A DNA stretch of 61,295 nucleotides from Acidobacteriota bacterium (GTDB lineage: Bacteria > Acidobacteriota > Thermoanaerobaculia > UBA5066 > Gp7-AA6), in NCBI GenBank assembly GCA_027307335.1, contig DAHUXD010000029.1, positions 1 to 61,295 of the forward strand, written 5' to 3'. The position numbers and the translations under genes were made by a program. The first letter of the stretch is position 1. Each line of letters opens with the position of its first letter. Of the stretch, positions 18,329 to 36,404 are shown piece by piece. The notes under the pieces were generated by a model that worked only from the letters and a program-made list of their open reading frames with translations, was not told the DNA's origin and made no database searches.

Positions 18329-18403
18329 GGCCCCATCGTCTAGAGGTCAGGACACGGCTCTTTCAAGGCCGCGACACGGGTTCGAGTCCCGTTGGGGCCG
18401 CCA
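18329..18403 (+). tRNA. tRNA-Glu (anticodon UUC)
   Basis: The sequence folds as a full cloverleaf. The acceptor arm is GGCCCCA with TGGGGCC, the anticodon loop CTTTCAA gives anticodon TTC, the T arm is ACGGG-TTCGAGT-CCCGT, and the CCA end is encoded (18401-18403). The D-region GTCTAGAGGTCAGGAC matches the usual bacterial tRNA-Glu. Its last 16 bases are the left attachment core of the element that follows, so the gene's 3' end has been replaced but restored by integration. Confidence 0.97.
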
Positions 18404-19839
18404 TCCGTTTTACACGAACCCGCGAACGGGGCCGCCGGAACGGGCGGGCGCATCCCCTCGCGGGCGACGACGATTCCGGCAGGGAAGACGATCCGGGCGA
18501 ACCGCTGTTTCTGCTCGAGGTCGAACCCGAGCCACGCCCGGCGAAGGTCCGCGAGGAGCCCCTCGGCGAAGGCGAGATCGGCGGAGATCGTCCGCTCGTC
18601 GACCTCGGCCTCGAGGAGCCCGGCGACTCCGAAGTCGGTCTCCGATTCGATCCGCCGAAGCTGCTCGCGATAGGTCTCCGCCGAGATTTCGTCGTCGACG
18701 AACTTCTGATCGAGCCGCTTCTTCCGAGCCCGGATCGCTTCGACCTGTTTCGACCGGGCCTCGCGACGAAGCTCGGCGTCCGCGTGTTCCCTGCGCCATG
18801 CATCGAGGGCGATCTCGCGGAACAGACGGAGGACGGGCGCGGGCATCGAGAACCCGGCGAGGGCCTCCTCGAAGTCGCCCTCGAGCTTCTCCTTCCGCGT
18901 GTTGACGCATCCCGAGGCGGCGAGGCATCGGTAATACCCGTAGGGTCTGCCCGTCTTCGACTTCGCCCACGCCCCGGAGAGCCCCTTCCCGTGCGTCTCG
19001 CACGAGGCGAAGCCGCGAAGCGGGAAGTCGGGATTCTGGCGGAGCCGTTCCGCGAACCTGCCCGCCGTCGCCTTCCCGTCGAGAGCGTGTTGCGCTCGGT
19101 AGAACAGTTCCCGATCGACGATCGGCGCGAAGTTCCCGTCCGTCTCGATTCCCCACTTCTTCGAGCGCACGATCCCGGCGTAGATCGGATTTCGGAGTAT
19201 CGCGTAGAGGGTCTGCCGGGCGACGAGGTTCCCGTGACGGCCCCGAAGACCGAGATCCCCGAGCCGGGCCCGAAGCTCCGGCCCGGTGTAGTCGCCGCTC
19301 GCCGCAAGCTCGAAGGCGCGGCGAACGAGCGGGGCCCGGTCGGCATCGTGCGCCATTCCTTCCGCGTATCCGAGCGGAGGCTGCCACGCCCACCGGCCCG
19401 CCGAGACGGCCGCCCGCATCCCGGCCGTCGTCCGCTCCGACTTCGCCCGATTGTCGAACGCGGCGAACGAGGCGAGTATGTCCTCCATGAGCCGCCCGGC
19501 CGCGTTCTCGCCGATCGGTTCCGTCGCGGAGCGGAGGATCGTGCCGTGCCGCTTTAGGGCGGCGGCCGTGATCGCGTGATCGTAGGAGTCGCGGGCGAAC
19601 CTCGAGAGGGAGTAGACGATGAAGTCGTCGACCTGCTTCTCCCGGCAGAACGTGATCCCGCGCTGAAACTGCGTCCGGTCGGCCGTCTTCGCGGATTCAC
19701 CCCCGTCGACGAAGACGGCGACGACCTCGGAGCCGATCCGCTCGGCGTACTCTCGGCAGGTCTTCTCCTGCGTCCCGAGGCTGAAGTTCTCGACCTGCCT
19801 AGCGTCACTCACGCGGCAGTAGATCGCGGCGGTCCTCAT
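18340..19839 (-). CDS. large serine recombinase (integrase), C-terminus read from the tRNA antisense strand
   Basis: This 499-residue protein has a serine-recombinase catalytic domain (AIYCRVSDARQ with Ser11; YSLSRFARDSYDH), a Recombinase domain (RQTLYAILRNPIYAGIV), a zinc ribbon (GFASCETHGKGLSG, YYRCLAASGC) and a long coiled coil (RSKQVEAIRARKKRLDQKF) that controls synapsis in this family. Start ATG is preceded by GGAGGGACGG and overlaps the stop of the upstream gene. The last 15 codons lie in the tRNA-Glu gene on the opposite strand and end at TAG 18340-18342. In a circular form the same frame would cross the core into the other end of the element, giving a different tail of 24 residues. 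Confidence 0.92.
   Translation of the reverse strand: MRTAAIYCRVSDARQVENFSLGTQEKTCREYAERIGSEVVAVFVDGGESAKTADRTQFQRGITFCREKQVDDFIVYSLSRFARDSYDHAITAAALKRHGTILRSATEPIGENAAGRLMEDILASFAAFDNRAKSERTTAGMRAAVSAGRWAWQPPLGYAEGMAHDADRAPLVRRAFELAASGDYTGPELRARLGDLGLRGRHGNLVARQTLYAILRNPIYAGIVRSKKWGIETDGNFAPIVDRELFYRAQHALDGKATAGRFAERLRQNPDFPLRGFASCETHGKGLSGAWAKSKTGRPYGYYRCLAASGCVNTRKEKLEGDFEEALAGFSMPAPVLRLFREIALDAWRREHADAELRREARSKQVEAIRARKKRLDQKFVDDEISAETYREQLRRIESETDFGVAGLLEAEVDERTISADLAFAEGLLADLRRAWLGFDLEQKQRFARIVFPAGIVVAREGMRPPVPAAPFAGSCKTDGGPNGTRTRVAALKEPCPDL
18388..18403. repeat. attachment-site core, left copy (within tRNA-Glu)
   Basis: CCCGTTGGGGCCGCCA covers the end of the T arm, the 3' acceptor strand and CCA of tRNA-Glu. 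The flanking bases differ from the right copy on both sides (T/G before, T/C after), so identity is exactly 16 bp. Confidence 0.9.
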
Positions 19840-20266: not shown

Positions 20267-20361
20267 CTTCACGGCCGGGCCTCGGGAACCGGGCTCGGAA
20301 CGGTCTCCGGGGGACACGGTTTCGAGTCATAGAGAAGACTCCTGCCCCTTAGACGAATCCC

Positions 20362-20383
20362 CCTCACCCTCACCCTCACCCTA
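20362..20383 (-). repeat. hexamer tandem repeat with G-quadruplex pattern on the minus strand
   Basis: On the plus strand CCCTCA is repeated three times and followed by CCCT; on the minus strand this is four GGG runs with three-base loops (GGGTGAGGGTGAGGGTGAGG). That is the canonical intramolecular quadruplex spacing. It lies in the non-coding gap just upstream of the 76-residue gene, on the transcribed sense strand. Confidence 0.7.
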
Positions 20384-20425
20384 AACGGGTACAGGTACAG
20401 GCGGTTTTCAATACAGGCGCGGGTT

Positions 20426-21007
20426 TTAGAGGTCATTTTCGACCCCCTCGCGGAGCCTAATTTCGGCGATTTTGGAGTAGGGTTTTTCAAGTCCTTGTTT
20501 CTCACGATTTTGGGCGACGACCGCGACCCGTCCCTCGAGCGATCCGGCCCCCTGAATGATGCGGACGACGTCCGGGACGAGGAGCGGCTCGCCGGGCCTG
20601 ATCTGCCGTCTCAGGAGCCCCTCCATTTCGACGACGAGCCGTCCTCCCGGGGCCGGGTCGGGATACGGGCACACGCTCCCGTCGCCCCTCCTGTTCGGGC
20701 ACCACGGGTGCGCGTAGACGTAGAACGTCGCGAGAACGACTCCGCCGAACGCGGGGAGCGCGAAGCGGAGGATCGCCCGGGTGTCCCGAAAATGATGCTC
20801 GGCGTCCTGCGCGGAGAGATAGACGATCGGCGTCCACTCCTCGAACGGCCGCCCGTCGGGCGCGAGAACAAGCTGCTTGTAGTTCTCGAACCGGAGGAGC
20901 CCCGGATGCGCGGGCATAGGCGGGATCGGCCGCTTCGCCCGCTTCGCCCGGATGCGGAGCTTCTCCTTCGACGCCTCGGAACGCCTCGCGACGCGGACGA
21001 GCCTCAC
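20426..21007 (-). CDS. 193-residue protein of unknown function in the element operon
   Basis: The N-terminal 30 residues are strongly basic (RRSEASKEKLRIRAKRAKRP). A mixed alpha/beta body follows with RFENYKQLVLAPDGRPFEEW, a hydrophobic strand-like FGGVVLATFYVYAHPWCPN and a Cys pair (HPWCPNRRGDGSVCPYP) that could hold a metal. It starts at GTG overlapping the upstream stop (GTGA). No family recognised. The gene sits in the block of small coupled genes between the coiled-coil protein and the recombinase, where phage genomes often carry accessory morphogenesis or regulatory genes, but nothing in it proves that role. Confidence 0.6.
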   Translation of the reverse strand: MRLVRVARRSEASKEKLRIRAKRAKRPIPPMPAHPGLLRFENYKQLVLAPDGRPFEEWTPIVYLSAQDAEHHFRDTRAILRFALPAFGGVVLATFYVYAHPWCPNRRGDGSVCPYPDPAPGGRLVVEMEGLLRRQIRPGEPLLVPDVVRIIQGAGSLEGRVAVVAQNREKQGLEKPYSKIAEIRLREGVENDL

Positions 21008-21189
21008 GTTCTACGCTCCTTCTCCGGTAGAACGGCGGGGTCGTTCGTCTTCCTGATCTGCTCGGCGATCTTGCCGAGGGTGAAGGCGACGGCCTGAAGG
21101 CGAGCCTCCGCTTCGGCGAGTAGGGACAGAAGCTCACGCCGTCGGAGAGCCTCGGCGTCGACGGCGGAGACCTCGGGCTCGCCGATCAC
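21004..21189 (-). CDS. 61-residue helical protein, unknown
   Basis: GTG start overlapping the upstream stop, and stop overlapping the next GTG. The product is nearly all helix (AEALRRRELLSLLAEAEARL, QAVAFTLGKIAEQIRK), suggesting a small coiled-coil or subunit protein. The double overlap is the strongest support for expression. Confidence 0.55.
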   Translation of the reverse strand: MIGEPEVSAVDAEALRRRELLSLLAEAEARLQAVAFTLGKIAEQIRKTNDPAVLPEKERRT

Positions 21190-21434
21190 GGCGCGGCGTC
21201 CTTCGACTCGATCGCCTTCCGGTACTCCTCCTCCGCCGCGAGAATCCGCTCGAGGAGCCGGTCATACTCGACCCCCTCGACGACGTCGCCCGCGACGACC
21301 ATCGCGGCGAGCCGATGCACGGCCGACAGGGCCGCGAACTTCTGCCGGAGCTTCTCGATCACGGCCGCGACCCGGGCGGGGCCGTCAGGCTCCGGCGGAG
21401 GCGGCGGCGGGAACGGCAGGACGCGATCGGTCAC
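21186..21434 (-). CDS. 82-residue protein with Pro-rich N-terminus, unknown
   Basis: Starts at GTG in a GTGA overlap. A proline run (VLPFPPPPPPEPDG) is followed by helices (VIEKLRQKFAALSAVHRLAA, RLLERILAAEEEYRKAIES). No known family; its overlap on both sides places it in the same translationally coupled chain. Confidence 0.55.
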   Translation of the reverse strand: MTDRVLPFPPPPPPEPDGPARVAAVIEKLRQKFAALSAVHRLAAMVVAGDVVEGVEYDRLLERILAAEEEYRKAIESKDAAP

Positions 21435-21757
21435 GAGCCGTCTCCGAGGAAGAAGACGTTCCCGACGATCAACGGGGCCCCTCTCGGAATCGCGCCGAGG
21501 AATCCCTCCGCGCCCTGTTCCGACTTGAACGAGAGGAACAGATTCCGAGGAGGTCCGTCGTCGTCGATCGTGATCTCGCCGTCGTGACGGGCCGCGAGCT
21601 TCGAGATCGCCGGGAGGAGAGGTCGTTTCCCTCGAGGGAAGAAGACTTGCACGATCACGGTGCCCGTAGACGGACCTGCTATGCTCGAGGAGACCTCCTC
21701 CCTTCTGATCGCCGCGCCGTTGATCCGGCCCGGCGATCTTTCATTTTCAGGTCGCAT
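21431..21757 (-). CDS. 108-residue protein, unknown
   Basis: From ATG at 21757 the product reads MRPENERSPGRINGAAIRRE and then a compact mixed domain (TVIVQVFFPRGKRPLLPAIS, RHDGEITIDDDGPPRNLFLS, GAPLIVGNVFFLGDGS). It overlaps the upstream gene by 11 bp and the downstream GTG by 4 bp. No motif or relative recognised; the beta-strand pattern suggests a small folded domain rather than a random frame. Confidence 0.55.
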   Translation of the reverse strand: MRPENERSPGRINGAAIRREEVSSSIAGPSTGTVIVQVFFPRGKRPLLPAISKLAARHDGEITIDDDGPPRNLFLSFKSEQGAEGFLGAIPRGAPLIVGNVFFLGDGS

Positions 21758-21986
21758 CGGCGTCCGCCACGGCCACGGCCTCGCGGTATCCGAGCTTCTC
21801 GCCCTTCGCCTCGGCGGCCTTCTGCGCCTCGATCGCCCGGGCGTGACGGAACACGCTCGAGGGCTCGAGCCCGGCGTCGACCGGGAGACCGATCCGCTTC
21901 GCGAGAAGCTCGGCGGCCCCGCGATCACCGTGAGATTTCCGCCACGAGGCGATCAGGTCGCGCTCGACCTTCGGGTCGCCGCTCAC
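21747..21986 (-). CDS. 79-residue protein, unknown
   Basis: GTG start overlapping the coiled-coil gene upstream (GTGA). Helical sequence MSGDPKVERDLIASWRKSHG then ELLAKRIGLPVDAGLEPSSV and an Ala-rich tail. Not recognised. Coupling to the upstream gene suggests it works with that protein. Confidence 0.55.
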   Translation of the reverse strand: MSGDPKVERDLIASWRKSHGDRGAAELLAKRIGLPVDAGLEPSSVFRHARAIEAQKAAEAKGEKLGYREAVAVADADAT

Positions 21987-22801
21987 GACGCGACCTCGAT
22001 CGACGGCGTCGGCGCGAAGTCGGGATCGCCGGGCGTCGCGATCTTCGGCGTGTTCTCACGGGCGAGCCGTTCCGAACGAGTGCGCCAGTCTTCGATATCG
22101 TCGTTCCGTCCCGCACCGATCGCGAATCCGGGAGCCGCCTTCGGGGCGGGCCGCTTCTCGATCATGGCGACGACCGCTTCGAGATCCGCGATCGGGTGCC
22201 CGAGGTCCTCGATCGCCTTCGCGACGTCGGCGGCCGTGCGGGCCTGCGCCCGTTCGGTCTCGACGACCATTCCTCGGGCGTTCTCGAGGGTCGCCTTCGC
22301 GGCCTCGACCTGCTTCTCGAGGTCGGCGACCTTCTGCTCGGCCTTCGATCGGATCTCCTGCGTCGTCTTCACGACGTCGGCAGCGATCGTGTTCCGCTTC
22401 AGGAGTTCGCGGAACTTGTTCGCCTCCTGAATCGTCGGCCCGTTGTCGGCGGCGGTCGCGACGCGGAAGTGCGGGGCCTGCCCGGCGATCTTGTTCGCAA
22501 GCTCGGGCATTTCGGCCCCGCCGGGAAGATGCACCTTCGCGCCGAAGGGGACCTCGGTCCCGGGGTTCATCTGCGCGGCCGCGACCTCGGCATCGAGACA
22601 GAGCGCGGTCGGGCGGAGGATGCGGGCGAACAGGACCGAGACGTCGAGCGTGCGGATCAGGTCGAGACCTTCGGCCGGGACGACGTTCGGGTTCGCGGCG
22701 ATCGCGGCCCGCCGCTTCTGCTCGGCCTTCGTCTCGAGGTGCGCCTCGATCTGTTCGTCGGTGACGGTGACGGCCGGAGCCGTCGGGTTCTTGGGAGCCA
22801 T
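21983..22801 (-). CDS. 272-residue coiled-coil protein, unknown
   Basis: Has a near-ideal ribosome site (AGGAGGTCAAGAATC before ATG). After a Pro/Ala-rich start and a helical segment (TDEQIEAHLETKAEQKRRAA) comes a compact region (EVPFGAKVHLPGGAEMPELA). A heptad-patterned coiled coil of about 60 residues follows (EIRSKAEQKVADLEKQVEAA, KATLENARGMVVETERAQAR), then an acidic, disordered tail. In phages, proteins of this type include scaffolds and tail-assembly factors, but there is no direct evidence here. It heads the run of overlapping genes leading to the serine recombinase. Confidence 0.65.
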   Translation of the reverse strand: MAPKNPTAPAVTVTDEQIEAHLETKAEQKRRAAIAANPNVVPAEGLDLIRTLDVSVLFARILRPTALCLDAEVAAAQMNPGTEVPFGAKVHLPGGAEMPELANKIAGQAPHFRVATAADNGPTIQEANKFRELLKRNTIAADVVKTTQEIRSKAEQKVADLEKQVEAAKATLENARGMVVETERAQARTAADVAKAIEDLGHPIADLEAVVAMIEKRPAPKAAPGFAIGAGRNDDIEDWRTRSERLARENTPKIATPGDPDFAPTPSIEVAS

Positions 22802-22830
22802 GATTCTTGACCTCCTAAAAATGGTTACGG

Positions 22831-23367
22831 TTACGGAGTCGGCGTCCGCGTCGGCGTCGGGTAGAAGCCGCCCTCGGGAGTCGGAGGGATCGGCGGGTTG
22901 TGAAAGGCCGGGGTCATAGTCGCGGTCGGCGGAACGGGCGTCGGCGTCGAGGTCCTCGTGCCCGTGATCGTCGGACTCGGCGTGATCGTCGGCGTCTTCG
23001 AGGGCGTCGGCGTCTGCGTTTTCGTCGCGGTATGCGCCGGGGTATTCGTTCTCGTGTTGTAGACGAGCGCGGTCGGCGTCCTCGAATTGAACGCCGGGGT
23101 CGTCGTCGGCGTACTCGTCGGTGTGTTCGTCGCCGTATGCGTAGGCGTAAAGGTCTGCGCGATCGGCGTGCCGGGCGTCGTCGTGATCGTGATCGAGCCG
23201 GGCGTGTTCGTCGGCGTCGGCGTTTTCGACGCGGTGGGGGTGTTCGTCGGAGTCGCCGTGTTCGTCGGGCCCGGGAACTTCGGGGTCTGCGTCGCGGTCG
23301 GAGCCTGCGCGATCGCGACACCTCCGAGCAGGACTACGAGCAGGGGCAGGAGAATGAGCTTCTTCAT
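22831..23367 (-). CDS. secreted Thr/Pro-rich low-complexity protein
   Basis: A 178-residue protein with a clear Sec signal peptide ([20 protein letters not shown], cleavage after AIA-QA). Almost all of the rest consists of irregular TPT/TNTPT/KTPTP repeats, the composition of cell-surface linkers and O-glycosylated stalks. Ribosome site AAAGGAAT before ATG; the ATG overlaps the stop of the upstream gene. No domain is attached, so if it acts as a linker its partner is elsewhere. The short repeats are non-identical, so it is a coding low-complexity region, not a CRISPR-like array. Confidence 0.75.
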
Positions 23368-23810
23368 CGGGTATTCCTTTCAGTCGGAGGCGAGTTCCCG
23401 GAGACGGAGAATCCGTCCCGGTGAGGATCAGAGATTTTCGTCGGAGTGGCGCACGGGAAGCGGGCCGCGAGCGCGGGACCGATCACGGCCGCCGCGTTCT
23501 CGCCCGAGGTCTCGCGCATCGCCTCGGCCGCGATCTTCATCGCTTCGTCGTCGGGGACGTCGCCGCAGATAGTTCCGTTCGCCATCCCGGCGTCGATCAC
23601 GCCCGCGACGTAAGCTCGGCACGGGTCCGCGCCCAAATCGCATCCGGTGAGTTCACGAGGGGCGGACGACGACGACACCGACGCGCACGAGATCGAAATC
23701 AGGACCCCGACCACGAGCGCGGTCGAACGAACACCGGCACGAGCCGAGAAGTCGCCTCCTCGGGACGAACGGGAATCACGCGGCCGGGCCGGGGCCCCGA
23801 ACTTCATCAT
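23364..23810 (-). CDS. exported protein with a Rap1a/Tai-like immunity-type domain
   Basis: An N-terminal arginine-rich stretch leads to a hydrophobic segment ([20 protein letters not shown]) that could be a signal peptide or lipoprotein signal, although the lipobox is not ideal. The C-terminal half has [20 protein letters not shown], then [16 protein letters not shown] and [15 protein letters not shown]. That four-cysteine, 'C-x-Y-x2-G ... P ... FPC' arrangement resembles the Rap1a/Tai family of type VI effector immunity proteins, also found in phages. Identification is by eye and tentative. ATGA overlaps on both sides. Confidence 0.6.
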
Positions 23811-24022
23811 CGGGAAGCCGCGCTCTTACGATCGGCGATCACCTCGAAGGCGCGATCGAGCCGGGCCATCTGTTCGGGCGAGGGCGTCCGCTCGCCGCGC
23901 TCGAACCGCGAGACGTCGGGTTGCGGAATGCCCGAGGCGGCCGAGACCTCGGCCTGCGACGCGGCGACCGTGAGGCGGCGGATCGTGAGTCCGGTCAGGG
24001 GCGAGATATGTCTTCCGGCCAT
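23807..24022 (-). CDS. XRE-family helix-turn-helix regulator
   Basis: A 71-residue single-domain DNA-binding protein: LTVAASQAEVSAASGIPQPD contains the recognition helix region, followed by VSRFERGERTPSPEQMARLD, the classical Cro/C1 pattern (Q-x3-A-x3-G...S-x-x-E-G). Strong ribosome site GGAGGAAATTTC before ATG. It is the first gene of the leftward operon that runs to the serine recombinase, and inverted repeats lie just upstream, so it probably represses its own operon. Confidence 0.88.
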   Translation of the reverse strand: MAGRHISPLTGLTIRRLTVAASQAEVSAASGIPQPDVSRFERGERTPSPEQMARLDRAFEVIADRKSAASR

Positions 24023-24043
24023 GAAATTTCCTCCGAGTTCGTT

Positions 24044-24061
24044 TAACCTGATTCGAGGTTA
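24044..24061. promoter_or_regulatory. inverted repeat, candidate operator for the XRE regulator
   Basis: TAACCT and AGGTTA form perfect 6-bp arms around a 6-bp spacer, 22 bp upstream of the regulator's ATG, in the right place to cover its promoter. Cro/C1-type dimers bind sites of this size. Confidence 0.5.
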
Positions 24062-24103
24062 TCAGGCAGCGCAAGGGCCTAAACCGTTCCCCGTCAGCCA
24101 CTT

Positions 24104-24184
24104 CCGAACGGAATAAGGCACGAGACGATAGAGACACTAAAATTCGATCCTGACCGAATGGGCCGATCGCCTTATTTCATTCGG
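24104..24184. promoter_or_regulatory. long imperfect inverted repeat upstream of the XRE gene
   Basis: CCGAACGGAATAAGGC (24104-24119) is mirrored by GCCTTATTTCATTCGG (24169-24184) with 14 of 16 positions paired across a 49-bp spacer. The region is AT-richer than its surroundings and has no convincing gene, so it may contain an additional operator pair or a replication/packaging signal. The stretch from 24023 to 24372 otherwise holds no gene I can support. Confidence 0.45.
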
Positions 24185-24372
24185 CGAGATCAATGAAAAT
24201 AGACGAATCCGTTCGGCAGGAGCCCCGCGACCGCCTCACGTTCCCCGGGTTCGGGGCCCCGAGGAACCCGAGGGAGACCTCTGCGCGGGGGCCTACGCGG
24301 GGCGAAGGCGGGCGATCGGGCAGGACAGGGCCCGAAGGGCTGGCCCGAGGGGATCGGGCTCCTGCGAGCGTC

Positions 24373-24594
24373 CTACGACGGCCGAGGGAGTCGGCGCGGA
24401 CGAAGCGGCGGGAACATCGCGGCGTGAACGTGCGGCGAGGTACACCGCTCGCCCGGCCCGGTGTAGATGCGGACGCCGGTCAGTCGCTCCGGCCAATGCG
24501 GGAAGCCAGACTCCGAGCAGAAGACGGCCCCGGCCCGGAGGCGTTCCTCGTGCGTCAGGGTGCCCGAGCTTGATCGGTCAGGGCGTGGGCGCAT
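24373..24594 (-). CDS. 73-residue protein, doubtful
   Basis: MRPRPDRSSSGTLTHEERLR and GAVFCSESGFPHWPERLTGV are followed by IYTGPGERCTSPHVHAAMFP. The middle looks like a small folded domain (Cys, His and aromatic residues in hydrophilic context), whereas the opposite-strand frame here is low-complexity Arg/Gly. No ribosome site is evident and no relative is recognised, so it is only a candidate. Confidence 0.35.
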   Translation of the reverse strand: MRPRPDRSSSGTLTHEERLRAGAVFCSESGFPHWPERLTGVRIYTGPGERCTSPHVHAAMFPPLRPRRLPRPS

Positions 24595-24671
24595 CCTGTA
24601 ATTCTACTCCTTCGAGAGTGCGATGACGGAGTCCAGCGACGGTCACGCCGACTTTGCGCTCCTTTGATCGT

Positions 24672-25247
24672 TTAGTGAGGGATACCGACACAGAATAGCT
24701 TACGGCAACCACTTTGCGGCGCTGAATCCTGTTCGTTTAGCTTCACATCGAAGTACTCGCAAACGTCTTTCGTGCAGCCCAATTGCATCTTCGGTCTCAC
24801 ATCGAAGTACTCGCAAACGTCTTTCGTGCAACCCAATTGCATCTTCGGTCTCACATCGAAGTACTCGCAAACGTCAGTCGTGCAGCCCAATTGCATACTC
24901 GGTCTCACGTCGAAATACTCGCAGACGTCAGTCGTGCAGCCCAATTGCATACTCGGTTTCACGTCGAAATACTCGCAGACGTCTCTCGTGCAACCCAATT
25001 GCATCTTCGGTTTCACATCGAAGTACTCGCAAACGTCAGTCGTGCAGCCCAATTGCATACTCGGCCTGTGTTCTGCGGGTAGTTCTGCGGGTATGGCCGT
25101 GCGAACGGGCGAGGGTCGCGTCTCTTGAACCGGAGTTATTCCACCCGTCGCCGATTGCGCCGAAACGTAGCGTGGCATCAGCGACGCAAAGAGGACAGTC
25201 GCAATCGCGCCGACGCGCCGGGAGATCCCTATGGGCCGCCCTGACAT
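24672..25247 (-). CDS. exported protein with six identical-length Cys-containing 18-residue repeats
   Basis: A Sec-type leader (SRRVGAIATVLFASLMPRYV, cleavage near VSA-QS) is followed by a Pro-rich linker and six tandem copies of the 18-residue unit MQLGCTxDVCEYFDVxPx (x = T/K/R; K/R; S/K). Each copy has a C-x4-C pair. The end carries one more Cys pair (SGCRKLFCVG). ATG at 25247 is used; a TTG 54 bp upstream is an alternative. The DNA repeat is 54 bp, about half GC, distinctly lower than the surrounding element, hinting at recent expansion or transfer. No known family; see the finding. Confidence 0.75.
   Translation of the reverse strand: MSGRPIGISRRVGAIATVLFASLMPRYVSAQSATGGITPVQETRPSPVRTAIPAELPAEHRPSMQLGCTTDVCEYFDVKPKMQLGCTRDVCEYFDVKPSMQLGCTTDVCEYFDVRPSMQLGCTTDVCEYFDVRPKMQLGCTKDVCEYFDVRPKMQLGCTKDVCEYFDVKLNEQDSAPQSGCRKLFCVGIPH
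24735..25058 (-). repeat. six tandem 54-bp coding repeats
   Basis: Exactly in-frame units of 54 bp without spacers; copies differ mainly at the residue after Cys-Thr and at the K/R and S/K positions near the end of each unit. The pattern indicates unequal crossing-over or slippage under selection to keep the two cysteines. Confidence 0.9.
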
Positions 25248-25345
25248 CTGCTGAGAATGATAGCCCCACCGCACACGGCGAGATGTTGCAGCGGGAGTCA
25301 ACGCAGGCGATGTACGCTCCGCTCCTGCGAACAGGAGGTGAGTTA

Positions 25346-25738
25346 GTGGCTCGAAAGTCGAAGTTCCCGAAGCTGTCCCCGTCGCAGGCTCACGCCGCGC
25401 TCCGGTGGCTCCACGCGCTCGGGAAGGTCACGGCGAACGACATAAAGAACGCGATCGGGCACCGCGAGAAGCTCGTCGCCGAGATAAAGGCCCGCCTCGA
25501 ACAGTTAGGCGGCGAGGGGCTCCGGTTCCTGCGCGGCCCTGAAGCGTTGAAACGGCCGCCCCGACGTAAGGCGAAGCGCGTCTCGGCCGCCGCTCGCGTC
25601 GCGTGGAAGACGCAAGGTCAATACCTCGGGGCGGTTCGGCCACTCTCGAAAGCTGATCGGCTAAAGGTGAAAGCGATCCGAGAGAAGTCGGGCGTCCGAG
25701 CGGCGATCGCGGCGGCGAAGAAGATCGCGAAGGCGTGA
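25346..25738 (+). CDS. 130-residue basic protein, first gene of the plus-strand cargo operon
   Basis: GTG start behind a perfect AGGAGGT (AGGAGGTGAGTTA). The N-terminal half is helical and could bind nucleic acid (SPSQAHAALRWLHALGKVTA, DIKNAIGHREKLVAEIKARL). The second half is Lys/Arg-rich (KRPPRRKAKRVSAAARVAWK) and ends KKIAKA, like a nucleoid-type or accessory DNA-binding protein. Divergent from the Cys-repeat gene and coupled (GTGA) to the next gene, so it probably belongs functionally to the operon. Confidence 0.65.
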   Translation: MARKSKFPKLSPSQAHAALRWLHALGKVTANDIKNAIGHREKLVAEIKARLEQLGGEGLRFLRGPEALKRPPRRKAKRVSAAARVAWKTQGQYLGAVRPLSKADRLKVKAIREKSGVRAAIAAAKKIAKA

Positions 25739-25929
25739 CACAAGAGCGGCCCCGCTTCCGTTGGAAATGCTCGCGGTGCGGACGCACCGCAGACGAGCCG
25801 ATCAGATACGGATGGGGTCCGGCCTACGCCGCCTGCTCGTGCGGACACTCCGTCGAGATGATCGTGCGGCGAGATCTGGCCGGGCAGGTAGTCGGGATCG
25901 ACGCGGCCGACCCCACACGCGAACGATGA
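25735..25929 (+). CDS. 64-residue zinc-ribbon protein
   Basis: The sequence RWKCSRCGRTADEPI followed by AYAACSCGHSVEMIV gives a C-x2-C ... C-x-C zinc ribbon. GTG start in a GTGA overlap with the upstream gene and a stop that overlaps the next ATG (ATGA). Small ribbons like this often bridge nucleic acid or protein partners; no specific function is visible. Confidence 0.65.
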   Translation: MTQERPRFRWKCSRCGRTADEPIRYGWGPAYAACSCGHSVEMIVRRDLAGQVVGIDAADPTRER

Positions 25930-26786
25930 GCGACGAGGGACCGGAGAAGCCTGAACAGAAGCCGGAGCCCGGCGAGCCGAAGACGCGACTCTCGGACGGA
26001 ATCGTCTTCGAGTTGGACGACTTCGATCGACACCTCGTCGACGAGCTACTTCCGAAGTCGGCCGAGCCGGGTCGATGGGCAGCGATGAACGCTGTCCGCC
26101 ACGCGAACCGGGCGTGGAAGATCCGCGAAGTCGATCCGGCTATGGCGGCGTTTCGCGCGATCACGGGAGAGGAGGAGGCGGCGTCCGCGTTGTTCCGCGC
26201 CTTCCGGCGCGTGGGCTATCCGAACGCAGAGAAGCTCAACCCGAGAAGCCACGTTCATAAGAACGCGGTGACGCCCTTCCTCGATGCGGTCTTCTCCCTT
26301 CTTGCGCTACCGTTCAACGCCGTGTTTCCGCGCGGGTTCGCTCTCTCGGTGACGGCCGAAGGGAGGATCGTCATAAAGCTGATCGTCGAGAACGGCACCT
26401 ACGAGCCAACGCCGCCGCTCCATATGTTCCTGACAGAGGGGAAATTTCTGCCCGATCGGACGATCGACCGGGAGACCGAAAGGCCCGTCGACTTCGGCAA
26501 CAAGATCGCTGAGCAGGCGGCGACGAACGGGGCGGTGACCGTGAAGGCGTATCTGAAGGAGCGGGCCAACTTGCGAAATCTCATTCTGTACGCCGGAGAG
26601 AACGGGCACCCTGAGGTACGGACCCCGATCGACCCCTTCCTACGGCTCGCGTGCCGGAACACCTTCACGATCTTGAAGGTCTACCTCCTGATCGACCAAT
26701 ACGAGGTGCAGACCTTCGCCCGGCAATGCCTCCTCGCATTCCTGAAGACCGTCGCCGACCCCACGATCGAAGTCGTCTTCGAGTAA
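25926..26786 (+). CDS. 286-residue cargo protein, unknown
   Basis: Mostly helical: LDDFDRHLVDELLPKSAEPG, AMNAVRHANRAWKIREVDPA and MAAFRAITGEEEAASALFRA form an N-terminal helical bundle with a conserved-looking ITGEEEAASAL stretch. A beta-containing region (GFALSVTAEGRIVIKLIVEN) and a C-terminal helical part follow. No membrane segment and no catalytic motif that I can name. It sits between the zinc ribbon and the HEPN-like gene in a coupled operon of four, the layout of many small defence cassettes. Confidence 0.7.
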   Translation: MSDEGPEKPEQKPEPGEPKTRLSDGIVFELDDFDRHLVDELLPKSAEPGRWAAMNAVRHANRAWKIREVDPAMAAFRAITGEEEAASALFRAFRRVGYPNAEKLNPRSHVHKNAVTPFLDAVFSLLALPFNAVFPRGFALSVTAEGRIVIKLIVENGTYEPTPPLHMFLTEGKFLPDRTIDRETERPVDFGNKIAEQAATNGAVTVKAYLKERANLRNLILYAGENGHPEVRTPIDPFLRLACRNTFTILKVYLLIDQYEVQTFARQCLLAFLKTVADPTIEVVFE

Positions 26787-26797
26787 GAGCCGAACCG

Positions 26798-27778
26798 ATG
26801 CCCCTTATCCGTGAAGACGACGGCACCTACCGGCTCGAGTTATCCAGCCCGGAGGAGGCTCGGTTTCCCGCAACCTACACGGAAGCTTTCGTCCGCTATC
26901 TGACTGCTCTCGATCACGCCTTCAGGAAGGCGAGAGAACGATCCGAATTCGATTTCATCCTCGCCCTACTTCGCGTCCGAGGAATCGAAGACGCGGGATG
27001 GGACCCCTACGAGACGTCGCTCCTCGCAATGGAGTCGATTGTGAAGCTCTCGTCGACGGTTAAGACCTTCTACGATCAGCGACACCTCCACCTATGGACC
27101 TACGGGCACCTCGTCGAGGCTTCCGAGCCCTACGAGATCGTCCGCAACGTCGTCGGAATCGCGAACGGCGAGGACAATATGCCTTTCCGGTTCCCGCCGA
27201 AGAAGGGGAAGAAGTACAACGTTCCGCAGACGCCGGGCGAGAAAATTGAACAGATCGAGGCGTACACCGCCTCGGTCGGGATGCCCGAAGTCGCCGTACC
27301 GTTTCGCGAGAGGTGGGACCGGGAGCTTCGGAACGCGATCTTCCACGCGGATTACGCCCTTCACGGCAACGAGATCAGGATTCGCGGGACCGGCCCCGGA
27401 CGCTCGTATTCCGGCGAGGAATTCATGCTGCTACTAAACCGAGCGAAGGCGTGCCACGATGCGATCGCTCACCTACAGCGTGCGGCGTGCGCCACCTACG
27501 ACGCGCCGAAGCTCGTTCCGGTCCCGGCGTATTTCAGTCACGACCGCTCGGCGTTCGGTCAGGTGATCGTCCGCGAAGGTGACGGGCTCGTCGGTGTTCG
27601 ATCTGCGTGGACCGTCCCACCTCGGCCCGGCGAAGGGGAGCGAATCCGTTGGCACTTCGGCCGCTTCTATCCGGGCGAGGCGAAGCTACTCGAAGCCGCC
27701 CGTGACGGCGCGGGGATCGTTCTTCCCCGGCCAAAATGGAAACGCGCCGAACGCCCGGCCGGATGGTGCCCCGAATAG
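26798..27778 (+). CDS. 326-residue protein with a HEPN-like R-x4-H motif
   Basis: Two helical parts flank a central linker. The stretch REL-RNAIFHADYALHGNEIRI contains R-N-x3-H, the catalytic R-x4-6-H motif of HEPN RNases, in the helix context (upstream aromatic/acidic, downstream small residues) typical of that fold. The C-terminal 100 residues form a separate domain (RSAWTVPPRPGEGERIRWHF). It starts at ATG 11 bp after the previous stop. If the motif is catalytic the protein would be an RNA-cleaving effector; homology needs checking. Confidence 0.7.
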   Translation: MPLIREDDGTYRLELSSPEEARFPATYTEAFVRYLTALDHAFRKARERSEFDFILALLRVRGIEDAGWDPYETSLLAMESIVKLSSTVKTFYDQRHLHLWTYGHLVEASEPYEIVRNVVGIANGEDNMPFRFPPKKGKKYNVPQTPGEKIEQIEAYTASVGMPEVAVPFRERWDRELRNAIFHADYALHGNEIRIRGTGPGRSYSGEEFMLLLNRAKACHDAIAHLQRAACATYDAPKLVPVPAYFSHDRSAFGQVIVREGDGLVGVRSAWTVPPRPGEGERIRWHFGRFYPGEAKLLEAARDGAGIVLPRPKWKRAERPAGWCPE

Positions 27779-27781
27779 CAG

Positions 27782-29359
27782 CTACGCGAGCTTCTTCGCA
27801 ATCTGTTCTTCGAGGATCTCCTTAACGGTAAGCGGAATGATGATCCGCTTCGACTTGCGGAAGAAACCGTCGACCTCACGAAGGGCGTCCGACGAGAAGT
27901 CGAACGCGACGAAAAACCCCTTCTGACGGTCTGACCGGATCATCGCCGCCTCGAAGCTGTCGATGTCGGGGCGGCCCGCCTTGTCCTTCTGCTTAACCTG
28001 CACCGGATACCAGTCGTCCATGAAGTCGAGCCCGACGTTCTCGCCGCTCTGAACGTCCTTCGCGCCCTTCGGCGCGGCCGAGACCGGAAAAATCCTGCCG
28101 TCGATGCCCATATCCCCGACCTGCGCCTTGTTCGGGATTCCGCCGAGGGCGATCACCGCCCAGTTCTCGAACTCGAACGGCGGGATCTTGCGAAGCTGCG
28201 CCTCACTCCACGGCAGATCACGCACGACGAAGCCGCGTCCCGCCTTCCATAACTTCTCGTCTTCGCGGAGCGTCGTGTTGTCGCGCAACCGCTTCGCCAT
28301 GACCCGGCAAGCGGTCGGCGAGATGTCGATCCCGATCCATTGCCGCTTCAGCTTCTCGGCCGCTAGGAGCGCCGTCCCGCACCCGCAGAAGGCATCTAGA
28401 ACGATGTCGTTCGGATTGCTACTCGTCGCAATAATCCTGTCCAGTAGAGCTAGCGGCTTCTGTGTCGGATAGCCGAGGCGCTCGGCATCGTTAGCTCGAA
28501 TCTGGTCAATGTCGGTCCATACGTTCCCGAGAACCGGCCCGCTCTGCTCATCGAGATAACGCTTGAACATGATCCGGCCGTCCTTCTCCTTGGGGAAGAG
28601 AAGAAGGCCCTTGCGGTCCAGTTCCGCCATAGTCTCGGGGCTGTTGCGCCATCCGCGTTCGGGCGGCTGATAGCCCTTGTAGACGTACCAGCCGTTAGGC
28701 TTGCCGGTCGCCTTGTTGATCGCCGCCATCCCGCCGCCGGCCGGGGCCGACATATCGCCGGTATTGAATCGTCTCGCACCCGCAGGAACAGACTGATTGG
28801 CGAGTTCCTCCTTCGTCATTCGTCGGGTCGTGCCGTCAGAAAGTTCCAGCCAGACGTACCAGTTACGGAGGGTCTCGGCCGGGTAGGTCGTATGTTGCGG
28901 CGTGAACGTGTACCCTTTGCCACCGGCATACAGGAAGATCGAGTCGCTCACGACAGGGAACTGCTTCGTCGCGTCGTTATGCGAGTCGGCCCGCTTCCAA
29001 ACAATCTCGTTAAGGAAGTTCTGCTCACCGAGGATCTGATCGAGCATCACCTTGACGTAGTGGCTCGCGTGCCAGTCGCAATGGTAGTAGAACGAGCCCG
29101 TCTTCTTTAGGACGCGGGCGAGTTCGACGCACCGGGGCCGCATGAACTCGATGTACGCCTTTGTCGACTCGTGTCGGTCCTCGAACGCTCGCGTCTCTTT
29201 CGACTCGCCCCAGAACACTTCGTAATTACGGTTCGAGTTGAAGGGCGGGTCGATGTAGATGAGATCGACGCAGCGGTCGGGAAGCTTCTGAAGCTGATCG
29301 AGACAGTCGCCGCAATATATGACGCGGGTGTCGAGTAGAGCCGACGATCGACGCGCCAC
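27782..29359 (-). CDS. DNA methyltransferase (DPPF type) with C-terminal Mrr-like nuclease domain
   Basis: Residues about 1-400 are a beta-class N4-cytosine/N6-adenine methyltransferase: DLIYIDPPFNSNRNYEVFWG (motif IV) near the N-terminus and DIVLDAFCGCGTALLAAEKL (motif I, SAM binding) toward the end. Residues about 410-525 resemble the Mrr_cat restriction domain: FENWAVIALGGIPNKAQVGD, MGIDGRIF (acidic residue) and DDWYPVQVKQKDKAGRPDID (Q-x-K). Thus modification and a possible nuclease share one chain. GTG at 29359 is the best start; further upstream the frame is Arg-rich. It is convergent with the HEPN-like gene and divergent from the next one. Confidence 0.85.
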   Translation of the reverse strand: MARRSSALLDTRVIYCGDCLDQLQKLPDRCVDLIYIDPPFNSNRNYEVFWGESKETRAFEDRHESTKAYIEFMRPRCVELARVLKKTGSFYYHCDWHASHYVKVMLDQILGEQNFLNEIVWKRADSHNDATKQFPVVSDSIFLYAGGKGYTFTPQHTTYPAETLRNWYVWLELSDGTTRRMTKEELANQSVPAGARRFNTGDMSAPAGGGMAAINKATGKPNGWYVYKGYQPPERGWRNSPETMAELDRKGLLLFPKEKDGRIMFKRYLDEQSGPVLGNVWTDIDQIRANDAERLGYPTQKPLALLDRIIATSSNPNDIVLDAFCGCGTALLAAEKLKRQWIGIDISPTACRVMAKRLRDNTTLREDEKLWKAGRGFVVRDLPWSEAQLRKIPPFEFENWAVIALGGIPNKAQVGDMGIDGRIFPVSAAPKGAKDVQSGENVGLDFMDDWYPVQVKQKDKAGRPDIDSFEAAMIRSDRQKGFFVAFDFSSDALREVDGFFRKSKRIIIPLTVKEILEEQIAKKLA

Positions 29360-29421
29360 GAAGAAGATCGTAACACCGACTCGCCCCGGAACCGTGTGCA
29401 GATGTACCCTCGGACGACACC

Positions 29422-30159
29422 ATGAACGACGAGAAGCACATCGCGGAGCGGTTCTTCGAGCGGCTTCTTCGGCTTCGCGGATACGACGACTTCGAGCACG
29501 AAGAGGGACGGCCCGGCGCACGGAAGAAGCCGGACTACCGAGTGACGTTCGACGGCGTCGACGCCTACTTCGAGGTGAAGTGCTTCGACGAGGGCGAGCC
29601 GCCCCGAGCCGGAGCGTTCACGTTCGACCCGATTAAGCCGGTGCGGGCGAAGATCGACGAGGCTCGCCCGCAGTTCAGGGAGTTCACGGACTCACCTTGC
29701 GTGCTCGTACTTCTCAATCCCTCGGGGAAGCTCGTGTTCATTCACGAGCACGACCAGATTTACGGCGCGATGTTCGGTGATCCGGCGTGGCAGATACCGT
29801 TCGATCCTGCGACCGGGCGGTTCGGCGAACTGAGCGGGACTGTCTTCACGAAGGGCGGGAAGATGGCCTATTCCCGCGATTCGGGGCCGAAGGACGTACG
29901 GAACACGACCTTCTCCGCGATCCTGTCCCTCTACATCCGGCGTGACCCCGGCGAGCCCCCGCCCGAGCCCGAGACCGTCGAGAAGATCGGGGCGTTCGTC
30001 TTTCACAACCCGTTCGCCCGCGTACCTCTGCCCGACTCGTTCTTCCGTGGGCCGTGGGATCGGGTCTTCGGGCGTCTTCCGAACGACCCGACGCAGATCG
30101 GACCGCTCTACGTCGGCGAGAACGTGCCCTTCGAGAGCGCCGGTCAGTCGACCCGGTAG
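29422..30159 (+). CDS. PD-(D/E)XK-like protein, 245 residues
   Basis: Near the N-terminus KPDYRVTFDGVDAYFEVKCF fits the PD-x(n)-E-x-K core of PD-(D/E)XK nucleases (the Asp of KPDY and EVK of FEVKCF), after a helix ERFFERLLRLRGYDDFEHEE. The rest is beta-rich without other motifs. The gene diverges from the methyltransferase gene with 62 bp between starts, the arrangement typical of a modification/nuclease pair. An alternative is a non-nucleolytic Holliday-junction-like or DNA-binding relative. Confidence 0.7.
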   Translation: MNDEKHIAERFFERLLRLRGYDDFEHEEGRPGARKKPDYRVTFDGVDAYFEVKCFDEGEPPRAGAFTFDPIKPVRAKIDEARPQFREFTDSPCVLVLLNPSGKLVFIHEHDQIYGAMFGDPAWQIPFDPATGRFGELSGTVFTKGGKMAYSRDSGPKDVRNTTFSAILSLYIRRDPGEPPPEPETVEKIGAFVFHNPFARVPLPDSFFRGPWDRVFGRLPNDPTQIGPLYVGENVPFESAGQSTR

Positions 30160-30332
30160 ACCTCGAGGCCGAGAACGGTTTCGACCCGGCCCGTCGGCAG
30201 CCGTCGAGTCCAATCCTCCGGCCGCTCCGGTCGCCTCGGCCTCCGCTTGCGCTCGGGCTCTCGGGGTTCGATCCTCGCAAGCTCGGCCTCCTCGCGACGG
30301 ATCGCAAGCTCCTCGGGGTTCTCAGAAGTCAT
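30144..30332 (-). CDS. 62-residue basic protein downstream of the large terminase
   Basis: MTSENPEELAIRREEAELAR then a strongly basic middle (REPERKRRPRRPERPEDW). Its ATG overlaps the end of the terminase gene by 11 bp, and its end overlaps the converging nuclease-like gene by 16 bp. Such small basic genes next to terminase are common in phage genomes, but this one has no recognised family. Confidence 0.5.
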   Translation of the reverse strand: MTSENPEELAIRREEAELARIEPREPERKRRPRRPERPEDWTRRLPTGRVETVLGLEVYRVD

Positions 30333-32505
30333 TGAACCCTCGCCTCACTCCGCCCCGGGCGAACGGGTTCCCGTCGCTCGAGGGGTTCCCGGCCTCGACG
30401 CGATCGTCGCGCTCGGCCGTCGTTCGACGGGCTCCGCCGTCGTGCTCGTCGACCGGCACGACCCCGCCCTTCCCGTCGGGTCGGAAGGCGCGATCGGCCG
30501 CCCGCGTGAACGTCCTCGAGCCCTCGAGGTTCCCGGTCCCGAAGACGAGCCCGAGGTCGGCGGCCCTGTTCGCCGTGATCCCGCCGCGCCCCTCGTCCCG
30601 GATGATCTGCGCGGCCATGAGGGCCGCGAAGCGGCGAGCGTCGACGGAGTGATCGTCCTGCGTCGAGAATCGGCGATCGCCACGAGAGGAGATCCCGATC
30701 TGCGCGTGATTCGTGAGAAGCTGCGCGGCCCCGAGGGCTCCGTTCCCGTTCCCGCCATCGTTCGCGATTCGAAGTTCGCCTCGACTGACCTTGCGCTCGA
30801 GGATGCGGGTCGAAAATTCCTTGTTCGAGCATCGGTGAGGTTTCGGCCGCCCGGCCGCGTCGAGGTTCGACGGGTTCGGCACCGTCTCTCCGGTGTCGAG
30901 CTCGATCTCGTCGACGCGAACCGAGAAGTCGAACGCCGAGATCCGTTCGTCGAGGTGCGAGTCCGCCCGGCACCTCGAACAGGTCTCGAACCCCCGGCCC
31001 CGGAGCCTCCCGACGAAGGCGACACCGGCCCCGCCGTTGTCGACGCCGAGCCGGAGCCTGTGATTCGTCGAGCAGTCGATCGCGGCGAACACCTCGGCCA
31101 TGAGTTCGTGACCGGCACCGACGAGGTGAAGCCGGAAGACGTCCGCCCATACCTTCGCGGAGACGCTCGGACGCTGAATGAGAAGCTCGGTCGGGTCGAC
31201 CGTGCCGATATCCGCGCCCCCGAACAGATGCGGATCGTCGCCGCCGTTGAAATCGTAAATCGGCGGAAAGTAGGAGGCGATCGTCTCCCCGAGGTCGCGG
31301 TCGGAGGGATACGAGACGTCCTCGTCCGCGACGACGACGTCACCGCCTCCGGGCGCGAGGGCTCCGACCTTCACCTTCGCCCGGCGATTCTTCTCGTCGA
31401 CGAACACCGTCACGAGCCGGTAGAAGGAGAGATCCGAGCGAAGGCACGGCCGGAGCTTCTCGTAAGGAAAAATCGAGCGGACGGGCGAGCCCCACATTCC
31501 CTCGACGTTCGTCTGCCATCCGACCGAGTCGCGGCCGTGGTATTGCTGCTCGTACTCGCGGGCGCGAGCCTCGGTCCAGAACGGCGCGGGCAGGTCCGAC
31601 TTGCGAATGTTGAGCTTGTAGAACTTCTTCGGCTCGTCGGCACCGGCCGGGGCCTCGGTGATCGAGGTCTCGCCGGAGCGTCGATTCGGGTCGAGGGCCG
31701 TCGCCCTCGAGCAGAGCGCATAGAAAAATCCGCCGTAATCGCCGTCGGGCGTCGACGCGATCAGGAACCGCGCCCCGGGCATCGCCGCCCGCCAGAACGA
31801 ATTCCAGATCATCGGGTTCTTCCACTTCGCGACCTCGTCGGCGAAGATCACCGGGCCCGGGAACGATCCGCCACCGCCGCCGAAGTGCCCGCCGAGAAAC
31901 TGATCGCCCGAGACTCCGCCGAGCCGCCATTGAATCGAGCCGCCCGAGGCAAAGACCATTTCCCGGTACGGTGAGAGCTTCGGTTTACCGACGAGCCCGC
32001 CGCCGACCGTCGGGTTCCCCGTGACCTGATATTTCAGGGCCGCGAAGATGCCCTCGGCCGTCGAGTCTTTATTCACCGCGATCAGGACCTTCGCGCCCGC
32101 CACGTGAACGGCCCACGCGGACAAAACGGTCACGAGGAGTGTCTTGCCGACCTCGGAGCCGCATTCGAGGATGAGGTTCCGGCCGAGGGCCGATCGGATC
32201 ATCCGAACCTGCGCCGGGTACAGGACGAGGGGAGTCCCTCGCGCACGAACGACCGAGCCGTCGGCCGCGACGACGTTGTCCTGCGTCGTGAAGTTCAGGA
32301 ACGCGAACGTCACCGGGTCCTCGGACGCCGCGATCTCCTCGAGAACGTCGACCGGAAGTGGGACGAGCTTCCCGCCTTTCTTCCAGCATCGACGGCCGGA
32401 GCGGAGAGCCTCGACCGTGACGTTCGGATGCCGCTTTAGGAAATACTCGAGCAGGTCGTTCGGGAGGCGAGTCGCGAGGGCCTGCGCGGGTTTCTTCTTA
32501 CTCAT
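30322..32505 (-). CDS. phage terminase, large subunit
   Basis: The 727-residue protein has an ATPase domain with Walker A-like CGSEVGKTLL (residues 115-124), Walker B GPVIFADEVAKW (about 217-228) and the coupling motif region FLIASTPDGDYGG. A C-terminal RNase H-like nuclease domain has acidic positions in GGADIGTVDPTEL (about 429-441), RLRLGVDNGG and STQDDHSVDARRFA. The motor packages DNA into a procapsid. It follows the P27-like gene with an 8-bp overlap. A disordered, charged C-terminal tail is present. Confidence 0.92.
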   Translation of the reverse strand: MSKKKPAQALATRLPNDLLEYFLKRHPNVTVEALRSGRRCWKKGGKLVPLPVDVLEEIAASEDPVTFAFLNFTTQDNVVAADGSVVRARGTPLVLYPAQVRMIRSALGRNLILECGSEVGKTLLVTVLSAWAVHVAGAKVLIAVNKDSTAEGIFAALKYQVTGNPTVGGGLVGKPKLSPYREMVFASGGSIQWRLGGVSGDQFLGGHFGGGGGSFPGPVIFADEVAKWKNPMIWNSFWRAAMPGARFLIASTPDGDYGGFFYALCSRATALDPNRRSGETSITEAPAGADEPKKFYKLNIRKSDLPAPFWTEARAREYEQQYHGRDSVGWQTNVEGMWGSPVRSIFPYEKLRPCLRSDLSFYRLVTVFVDEKNRRAKVKVGALAPGGGDVVVADEDVSYPSDRDLGETIASYFPPIYDFNGGDDPHLFGGADIGTVDPTELLIQRPSVSAKVWADVFRLHLVGAGHELMAEVFAAIDCSTNHRLRLGVDNGGAGVAFVGRLRGRGFETCSRCRADSHLDERISAFDFSVRVDEIELDTGETVPNPSNLDAAGRPKPHRCSNKEFSTRILERKVSRGELRIANDGGNGNGALGAAQLLTNHAQIGISSRGDRRFSTQDDHSVDARRFAALMAAQIIRDEGRGGITANRAADLGLVFGTGNLEGSRTFTRAADRAFRPDGKGGVVPVDEHDGGARRTTAERDDRVEAGNPSSDGNPFARGGVRRGFNDF

Positions 32506-34547: not shown

Positions 34548-34561
34548 GCGGCCATTTTATC

Positions 34562-34585: not shown

Positions 34586-34607
34586 ATCGGCCCCGAGAGG
34601 TTGCCGG

Positions 34608-34874: not shown

Positions 34875-34959
34875 TCCAGAGTTCCGTAATATCCAAACCG
34901 CTTCAGAAATACCGAGGCGGCAAGCGGGCAGCACCGAGAAGAAATAGACCCTCGAAGAA

Positions 34960-36018
34960 TCAGTCTTTACCGATCCCGGAGCCGTAGACCCGGCCCGAGC
35001 CCTTCCGACTACGCCCGCCGGGACGGACCGCGTCCTCCGAGAGCCCGAGCCCGCGAGCTTCGGGCAGGGTCGCAAGCGACTCGAATCGGCGACGGTGTTC
35101 TCCGGCCGCTTTCACGTACCGGCGAACGGTCTGAAGGTCCCGGTGCCGGAGAAGAATCGCGACGTCCTCGATCCGCATTCCGCCCTCGACGGCGTGAGTC
35201 GCCCGCGAGCTTCGGAGGGCGTGTGGGGTCAAGCGGCGGCCGACCCGGTGAAGACCGGCGATCCGAACGCATCGGTCGAAGACGGCCGCGCACGCCCGCG
35301 ACGAGAGCCCGAACAGGGAATCGCCGCGACGACCGACCGACGACCGGGTCGCCTTCCACGCGAGCAGGGCCCGGGACGCAACGGGGCCGAGGTACAGGGG
35401 ACGACTCGGCCGCCTCGAGGTCTTCGACGAGCGGATCACGATCGCGAGGTTCCCGTCGCGGCCGTCGGGGGCGAGAACGTCGGAGACCCGGAGCCCGGCC
35501 GCCTCGGAGACCCGAAGGGCCGCCGCATACGAGACCATTAGAAGGGCGAGGTCCCGCTCGGCGATCCCGGCCGCTCGTTCCGCTCGCCGTGCGAAGAACT
35601 TGTCGGGCTCCCGCTTCCCCTGCGTCACCTTCTGCCCGGCGGCGGCCGCGTAGAGCTTCGAGAGTTCCTTCGGCGACAGGACGACGACCTCGGGGTCGTC
35701 TCGATCCCCCCGGGGGAGCTTCACGGCGCGAGCGTGCGATTTCGGAAGGAGGTCCCGATCGACGGCCCACTCCTCGAAGCTCTTGATCGCCGCGAGCCGG
35801 GTCGAGATCGTAGAGGGCGCGAGCCCGGCGATCTGCATCCGGCGAACGAAGTCGTCGAACGTCGCGAGCTTGACGTCGGCCGCGTAGTCCGTCACGCCCG
35901 CATCGCGCACGAAGGCGAGGACGTCCCGCCGATACGCTCGAGCCGTCGCGACCGACTTCCATCCCGGGCCGGTCGACCACGCGGCCCATTGTTCGACGAG
36001 AGTCTCGGAGGCCGTCAC
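34960..36018 (-). CDS. tyrosine recombinase (XerC/D-like integrase)
   Basis: The 352-residue protein has an N-terminal SAM-like core-binding domain (ARAYRRDVLAFVRDAGVTDY, STISTRLAAIKSFEEWAVDR) and a catalytic domain with the family residues in order: Arg in AALRVSEAAGLRVSDV, Lys in RSSKTSRR, H-x-x-R in LTPHALRSSRATH, His in LLRHRDLQ and the nucleophilic Tyr in VRRYVKAAGE. GTG start overlapping the upstream stop (GTGA). It lies at the opposite end of the element from the large serine recombinase, so either enzyme could be the integrase. Confidence 0.93.
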   Translation of the reverse strand: MTASETLVEQWAAWSTGPGWKSVATARAYRRDVLAFVRDAGVTDYAADVKLATFDDFVRRMQIAGLAPSTISTRLAAIKSFEEWAVDRDLLPKSHARAVKLPRGDRDDPEVVVLSPKELSKLYAAAAGQKVTQGKREPDKFFARRAERAAGIAERDLALLMVSYAAALRVSEAAGLRVSDVLAPDGRDGNLAIVIRSSKTSRRPSRPLYLGPVASRALLAWKATRSSVGRRGDSLFGLSSRACAAVFDRCVRIAGLHRVGRRLTPHALRSSRATHAVEGGMRIEDVAILLRHRDLQTVRRYVKAAGEHRRRFESLATLPEARGLGLSEDAVRPGGRSRKGSGRVYGSGIGKD

Positions 36019-36388: not shown

Positions 36389-36404
36389 CCCGTTGGGGCC
36401 GCCA
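36389..36404. repeat. attachment-site core, right copy
   Basis: Second perfect copy of CCCGTTGGGGCCGCCA. It is a detached tRNA 3' end with no cloverleaf upstream, as expected for the displaced chromosomal end after integration. Chromosomal sequence resumes at 36405, 77 bp before the octahaem cytochrome gene. Confidence 0.9.

Follow-up and report, generated by a model that had tools for sequence, protein, structure and literature searches.

A putative orphan exported protein with near-identical cysteine-paired repeats in an integrative element at a tRNA-Glu gene of an Acidobacteriota bacterium

The antifreeze protein of Tenebrio molitor is built of disulphide-braced 12-residue TCT repeats that present a flat, ice-binding Thr face. 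Tachyplesin and protegrin are disulphide beta-hairpin peptides, which are single, cationic and equipped with four cysteines, and multi-core ribosomal peptide precursors carry repeated cores with a conserved recognition sequence between one core and the next. The open reading frame (ORF) described here lies at 25247..24672 on the minus strand of a 61,295-nucleotide stretch of DNA from an Acidobacteriota bacterium (the window), and its putative product resembles each of these systems in part. Like the antifreeze protein it would be exported and consist of short tandem repeats with one cysteine pair each, and one disulphide per coil is possible. Its unit, however, has 18 residues with a C-x4-C pair and lacks a T-x-T array, and the antifreeze protein was absent from our fold-search matches. 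With tachyplesin and protegrin it shares strand-like flanks around a short loop that a C-x4-C pair spans, but its units come in tandem, range from acidic to neutral and contain a single pair each. Near-identical short tandem cores in one chain are reminiscent of the multi-core precursors, from which the ORF differs in having neither recognition sequences nor maturation genes and in starting with a putative Sec-type signal peptide where those have a leader peptide.

The ORF starts with an ATG at 25247, ends with a TAA at 24674-24672 and has 191 codons (191 aa); all of its parts are read on the minus strand. A signal-peptide-like segment (MSGRPIGISRRVGAIATVLFASLMPRYVSA, 25158..25247), with a cleavage site placed between VSA and QS by a crude rule and by reading of the sequence, is followed by a cysteine-free, Pro/Thr/Ala-rich linker of 33 aa (QSATGG...AEHRPS, 25059..25157). 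Behind it lie six 54-bp tandem copies of an 18-residue unit, MQLGC-T-[T/R/K]-DVCEYFDV-[K/R]-P-[K/S], namely unit 1 (MQLGCTTDVCEYFDVKPK, 25005..25058), unit 2 (MQLGCTRDVCEYFDVKPS, 24951..25004), unit 3 (MQLGCTTDVCEYFDVRPS, 24897..24950), unit 4 (MQLGCTTDVCEYFDVRPK, 24843..24896), unit 5 (MQLGCTKDVCEYFDVRPK, 24789..24842) and unit 6 (MQLGCTKDVCEYFDVKLN, 24735..24788). A C-terminal tail (EQDSAPQSGCRKLFCVGIPH, 24675..24734) completes the chain.

Six near-identical 18-residue repeats with a C-x4-C pair had been described in an earlier note on this DNA, made from the sequence alone, and our analysis bears this out. Tandem Repeats Finder reports the array at 24743-25058 with a period of 54, 5.9 copies, 91% matches and a score of 492, exceeded in the window only by the array's own 162-bp multiple. 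The cysteine pattern of four copies (TGY-N12-TGY repeated every 54 bases) has three overlapping matches in the window, all at the array, and none of 100 dinucleotide shuffles contained it. Twelve of the 54 nucleotide columns are variable among the units, and the protein changes among them are T/R/K at position 7, K/R at position 16 and K/S at position 18. The earlier consensus, MQLGCTxDVCEYFDVxPx, was right in placing the changes at these three positions, but it left out the end of the sixth copy, which reads KLN and not xPx. The invariant core of the unit is Q-L-G-C ... D-V-C-E-Y-F-D-V, with position 7 inside the cysteine loop and positions 16 and 18 in the linker. The 14 cysteines of the ORF all belong to seven C-x4-C pairs, the seventh of which had been overlooked; it is situated in the tail, outside the array (QSGCRKLFC, in the context Q-x-G-C-x4-C). 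When scored against the unit profile, the tail was equalled by 12 of 3000 random and 51 of 3000 shuffled tails (0.4-1.7%), and by its sequence it is probably a degenerate seventh repeat.

The mean GC content of the array is about 0.50 (0.44/0.35/0.70 by codon position), compared with about 0.6-0.7 in the surrounding 500-base windows, in agreement with the drop remarked on before. Units 1 and 4 are 1 base apart and units 3 and 6 are 11 apart, so that blocks of ~162 bp were likely duplicated as well as single units. We infer a recent expansion of the array through tandem duplication of 54-bp as well as 162-bp blocks.

The mobile-element setting that had been proposed for the ORF holds, and the exact ends of the element, previously missed, can be given. 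The element spans ~18.0 kb between 16-bp exact direct repeats, of which the attL-like copy (CCCGTTGGGGCCGCCA, 18388..18403, plus strand) is the 3' end of a tRNA-Glu gene (18329-18403), and the attR-like copy (CCCGTTGGGGCCGCCA, 36389..36404, plus strand) marks the other end. Integrases are found at both ends, a large serine integrase (18340..19839, minus) at the tRNA and a tyrosine integrase (34960..36018, minus) at the opposite side, close to which a short serine recombinase (33864-34547) is encoded. The element also contains a gene for a terminase large subunit-like protein (30322..32505, minus; PHROG 2, E 3.3e-14). With a large serine integrase, a tyrosine integrase and a short serine recombinase within 18340-36317, any of the three may have made the 16-bp repeats, and the element may be two nested elements or a composite. 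The frame of the large serine integrase (18340-19839) runs into tRNA-Glu. Among its relatives from the same class, at ~35-44% identity, nine of the stretches inspected have a tRNA gene ~25-140 bases from the integrase's C-terminal end, namely four with tRNA-Glu, four with tRNA-Ala and one with tRNA-Arg. Judged by sequence, this group appears to be a clade of large serine recombinases targeting tRNA 3' ends. Within the class, a local search found two distant terminase relatives, at 27-30% identity. Neither the repeat gene nor its neighbours were present in any of 15 related-element stretches identified through the terminase and serine integrase relatives. The genes beyond the ends of the element are of ordinary chromosomal kinds, including those for a multihaem cytochrome, BacA, a TonB receptor and an S9 peptidase.

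Directly downstream of the repeat ORF lies a small ORF (24373-24594, minus). Also downstream, on the same strand as the repeat ORF, are three genes with successive four-base overlaps. They encode a helix-turn-helix (HTH) protein, a Rap1a immunity-like, exported-looking protein (23364..23810, minus; PF18602, E 5.4e-7, which passes the cut-off) and a Thr/Pro-repeat protein whose start resembles a signal peptide (22831..23367, minus). Situated between the HTH and Thr/Pro-repeat genes, the Rap1a-like gene (23364-23810) is possible immunity or envelope cargo. A small basic protein is encoded divergently (25346-25738, plus). Further away, an N6/N4 DNA methyltransferase (27782-29521), whose C-terminal stretch is weakly similar to Mrr-type nucleases (E 0.006), adjoins a protein encoded on the other strand (29422-30159), and the two are possible restriction-modification cargo. 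By its predicted features, the repeat gene is cargo among other, putatively envelope-directed cargo.

An open frame through this array is weak evidence for a gene, since a period that is a multiple of three opens every frame whose unit has no stop. Three of the six frames are open or nearly open, and two of these, on the plus strand and likewise not mentioned in the earlier note, extend through most of the array. The array might be a minisatellite that encodes no protein, either a relatively AT-rich 54-bp product of slippage or a DNA site, such as iterons bound by the small basic protein at 25346-25738, in which case the multiple-of-three period and the signal peptide would be due to chance. 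The other open frames mean that an uninterrupted minus frame says little against such an origin, and the fall in GC from about 0.65 to 0.50 within the array agrees with it, as does the codon usage of the N- and C-terminal flanks, which is not gene-like and unlike that of the element's other genes. In addition, no ribosome-binding site was found before the ATG, whereas several element genes have one, for example those at 25346 (+) and 21983 (-), nor was a promoter-like site found for the ORF. Read from sequence, a TATCAT nine bases upstream of the ATG would be compatible with leaderless transcription. The N-terminus, with three Arg in its n-region, a 13-residue hydrophobic core and a V-S-A cleavage motif, argues against a minisatellite and supports the signal peptide claimed earlier, as the crude rule that it satisfies is passed by only 245 of 61,926 random open starts (about 0.4%). 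A chance origin also accords poorly with the seventh C-x4-C pair outside the array (0.4-1.7%) and with the codon positions of the 12 variable columns in the minus frame (0 at position 1, 4 at position 2 and 8 at position 3), the chance of no variable site at position 1 being 0.8-2.6%. Moreover, no copy of the unit exists elsewhere in the window or genome, and Rfam matched only tRNA. We consider a minisatellite unlikely, though well worth keeping in mind, and posit that the minus frame of the array is probably coding. The substitutions themselves fail to tell this frame apart from its antisense counterpart (plus strand, 24679-25128; units TSKYSQTSxVQPNCIxGx), because the third positions of both frames face each other. 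In the minus frame, four of the eight variable codon columns are purely synonymous and pairwise differences comprise 34 synonymous versus 61 nonsynonymous ones, while the antisense frame, with 50 versus 40 and mild replacements (F/V/L, F/L and L/F), is at least as mild, an outcome that the facing third positions make automatic. That the antisense frame is the real gene would be in line with its 149 open codons and with a slightly higher codon score over the array (0.118 versus 0.015 in the minus frame). Its sole start codon, however, is a GTG inside the array, it has no signal peptide or other N-terminal part, and its positional GC of 0.35/0.44/0.70 is less gene-like than the 0.44/0.35/0.70 of the minus frame. 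The minus frame is preferred because its antisense counterpart has no start codon before the array, and we regard the latter as a scarcely credible gene. No homologue that could show conservation of the frame was found in any collection searched.

If the minus frame is translated, its cysteines could serve ends other than a disulphide-braced fold. Two cysteines and three acidic residues per 18-residue unit, with 14 cysteines in total, would suit an array in which the cysteine pairs and nearby Asp and Glu bind metal and form no disulphides. Metal sites are usually spaced C-x2-C or C-x-C, so that C-x4-C would be unusual, the units have no histidine, and no metal-domain profile matched. Predicted export into the oxidising compartment of a host with a putative VKOR-DsbA oxidant speaks against metal binding as well, and we find a metal-binding array improbable. 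The chain could also be a precursor that is cut into several disulphide peptides of ~18 residues, as had been suggested earlier, since a signal peptide followed by near-identical tandem units is reminiscent of multi-core precursors. Such processing is very improbable given that a constant protease site is missing (K and S alternate before each M, N stands at the end of unit 6, and K and R alternate two residues earlier) and that the spacing recognition sequence of classic repeated cores has no counterpart here. No protease, ABC transporter or modifying enzyme was recognised among the element genes.

One of five AlphaFold2 models of the array alone, made in single-sequence mode, is a solenoid to which each unit contributes two strands (pLDDT 72.7, pTM 0.65), and the remaining four reach 36-45; AlphaFold2 is known to make such solenoids for meaningless perfect repeats (PMC11795689). 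Foldseek returned no significant match for either of the two models searched, with all E-values above 0.3. Aligned with VIA-align, the array model gave Z scores of at most 8.3 against assorted solenoids, and at Z 6.6-8.3 over about 100 residues it superposes on solenoids of the right-handed beta-helix and pentapeptide-repeat type, for example AlbG (2xt4), MfpA (2bm5), the PL3 pectate lyase (3t9g) and the CARP domain of CAP1 (6fm2). At 6-12% identity there is no sequence similarity to these beta-solenoids, and the repeat protein lacks the pentapeptide A(D/N)LxX. It has no Pfam pentapeptide match, and its period of 18 is not a multiple of 5.

The earlier statement that no known domain matches was upheld by Pfam (best E 0.0054, below every cut-off and to unrelated eukaryotic or viral domains), by the NCBIfam and PADLOC profiles and by PDB sequences, none of which matched the repeat protein. 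PHROG profiles gave weak whole-protein scores (phrog_15733, E 2e-4; phrog_7447, E 9e-4) with zero stretches significant alone. We discounted these because weak scores are summed over identical repeats, and a direct search of the genome with phrog_15733 gave no match. In the bacterium's own genome only the array itself and its antisense were recovered. Searches of 60 relatives, of the complete set of 149 genomes from the class and of 396 from the phylum, sets that may lack the records closest to the window's own genome, yielded only marginal matches, none surviving inspection. Plasmids (protein and DNA) and E. coli genomes (DNA) gave no match. In IMG/VR, peptide patterns had no match and a cysteine-only four-unit pattern had at least 120, of which the loci inspected among those listed were only low-complexity. 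The two-unit pattern C-x4-C-x-[FY]-x-[DE] occurred in 46 stretches in 84,980 prokaryote genomes and in 10 in IMG/VR, none of them unit-like. The only phage match, at 28% and antisense to a 27-bp repeat gene in MW202691, was judged to be due to chance. Ruminococcaceae RUG12588 (1919-2001) has two exact tandem 18-residue copies of CRSGHCYFSEASGSTAPQ with the pattern C-x4-C-x-F-x-E, sharing only the cysteine frame with our unit, and the likeness is probably a coincidence, either convergent or non-coding. The literature on secreted cysteine repeats of the C-x4-C kind held nothing relevant that we could find.

Taken together, the ORF probably encodes an orphan exported protein, carried as cargo by the integrative element at the tRNA-Glu site, and the fuller account that follows appears to us about as likely as not. 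For such a protein, local periplasmic disulphides would be the simplest state, because C-x4-C flanked by strand-like residues has the spacing of a disulphide hairpin and the host encodes VKOR and DsbA domains. These lie in neighbouring stretches of one open frame, in the same direction, on another contig (C38:11382-12623; 489-aa frames), and the predicted frame is consistent with a fused VKOR-DsbA disulphide oxidant. We posit that Sec would export the repeat chain and that each C-x4-C pair (C5-C10) would close in the periplasm as a local disulphide through the host VKOR-DsbA; disulphides in the repeat protein are plausible from its sequence. The fold would be made up by the invariant core and would leave the variable residues 7, 16 and 18 exposed to solvent. 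The product, which would be made together with the element's two other exported-looking proteins while the element is integrated, might act in the envelope or at the surface as a rigid protein that is multivalent or spacer-like. Our first guess is that it acts in lysogenic conversion, by changing the surface of the carrier, and a decoy or exclusion role is conceivable. The role in conflict or surface modification that had been suggested before is possible as well, with the Rap1a-like and Thr-Pro-rich exported-looking proteins encoded downstream. A bolder and rather doubtful extension is that the protein represents a new, mobile-element-borne, disulphide-laddered fold with one C5-C10 bridge per 18-residue coil, which would coat or mask the carrier surface, perhaps serving as a multivalent decoy or an exclusion factor against phages or rival elements, with its copy number and position 7 evolvable.

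A single orphan without relatives settles no open question alone. The locus illustrates two traps, namely that a stop-free tandem unit opens several frames and that AlphaFold2 will turn nearly any close-to-perfect repeat into a solenoid. If the protein is made, its repeat unit would be one not described in the libraries searched, and it would provide a simple natural test case for the origin and amplification of cysteine-paired tandem repeats on mobile DNA.
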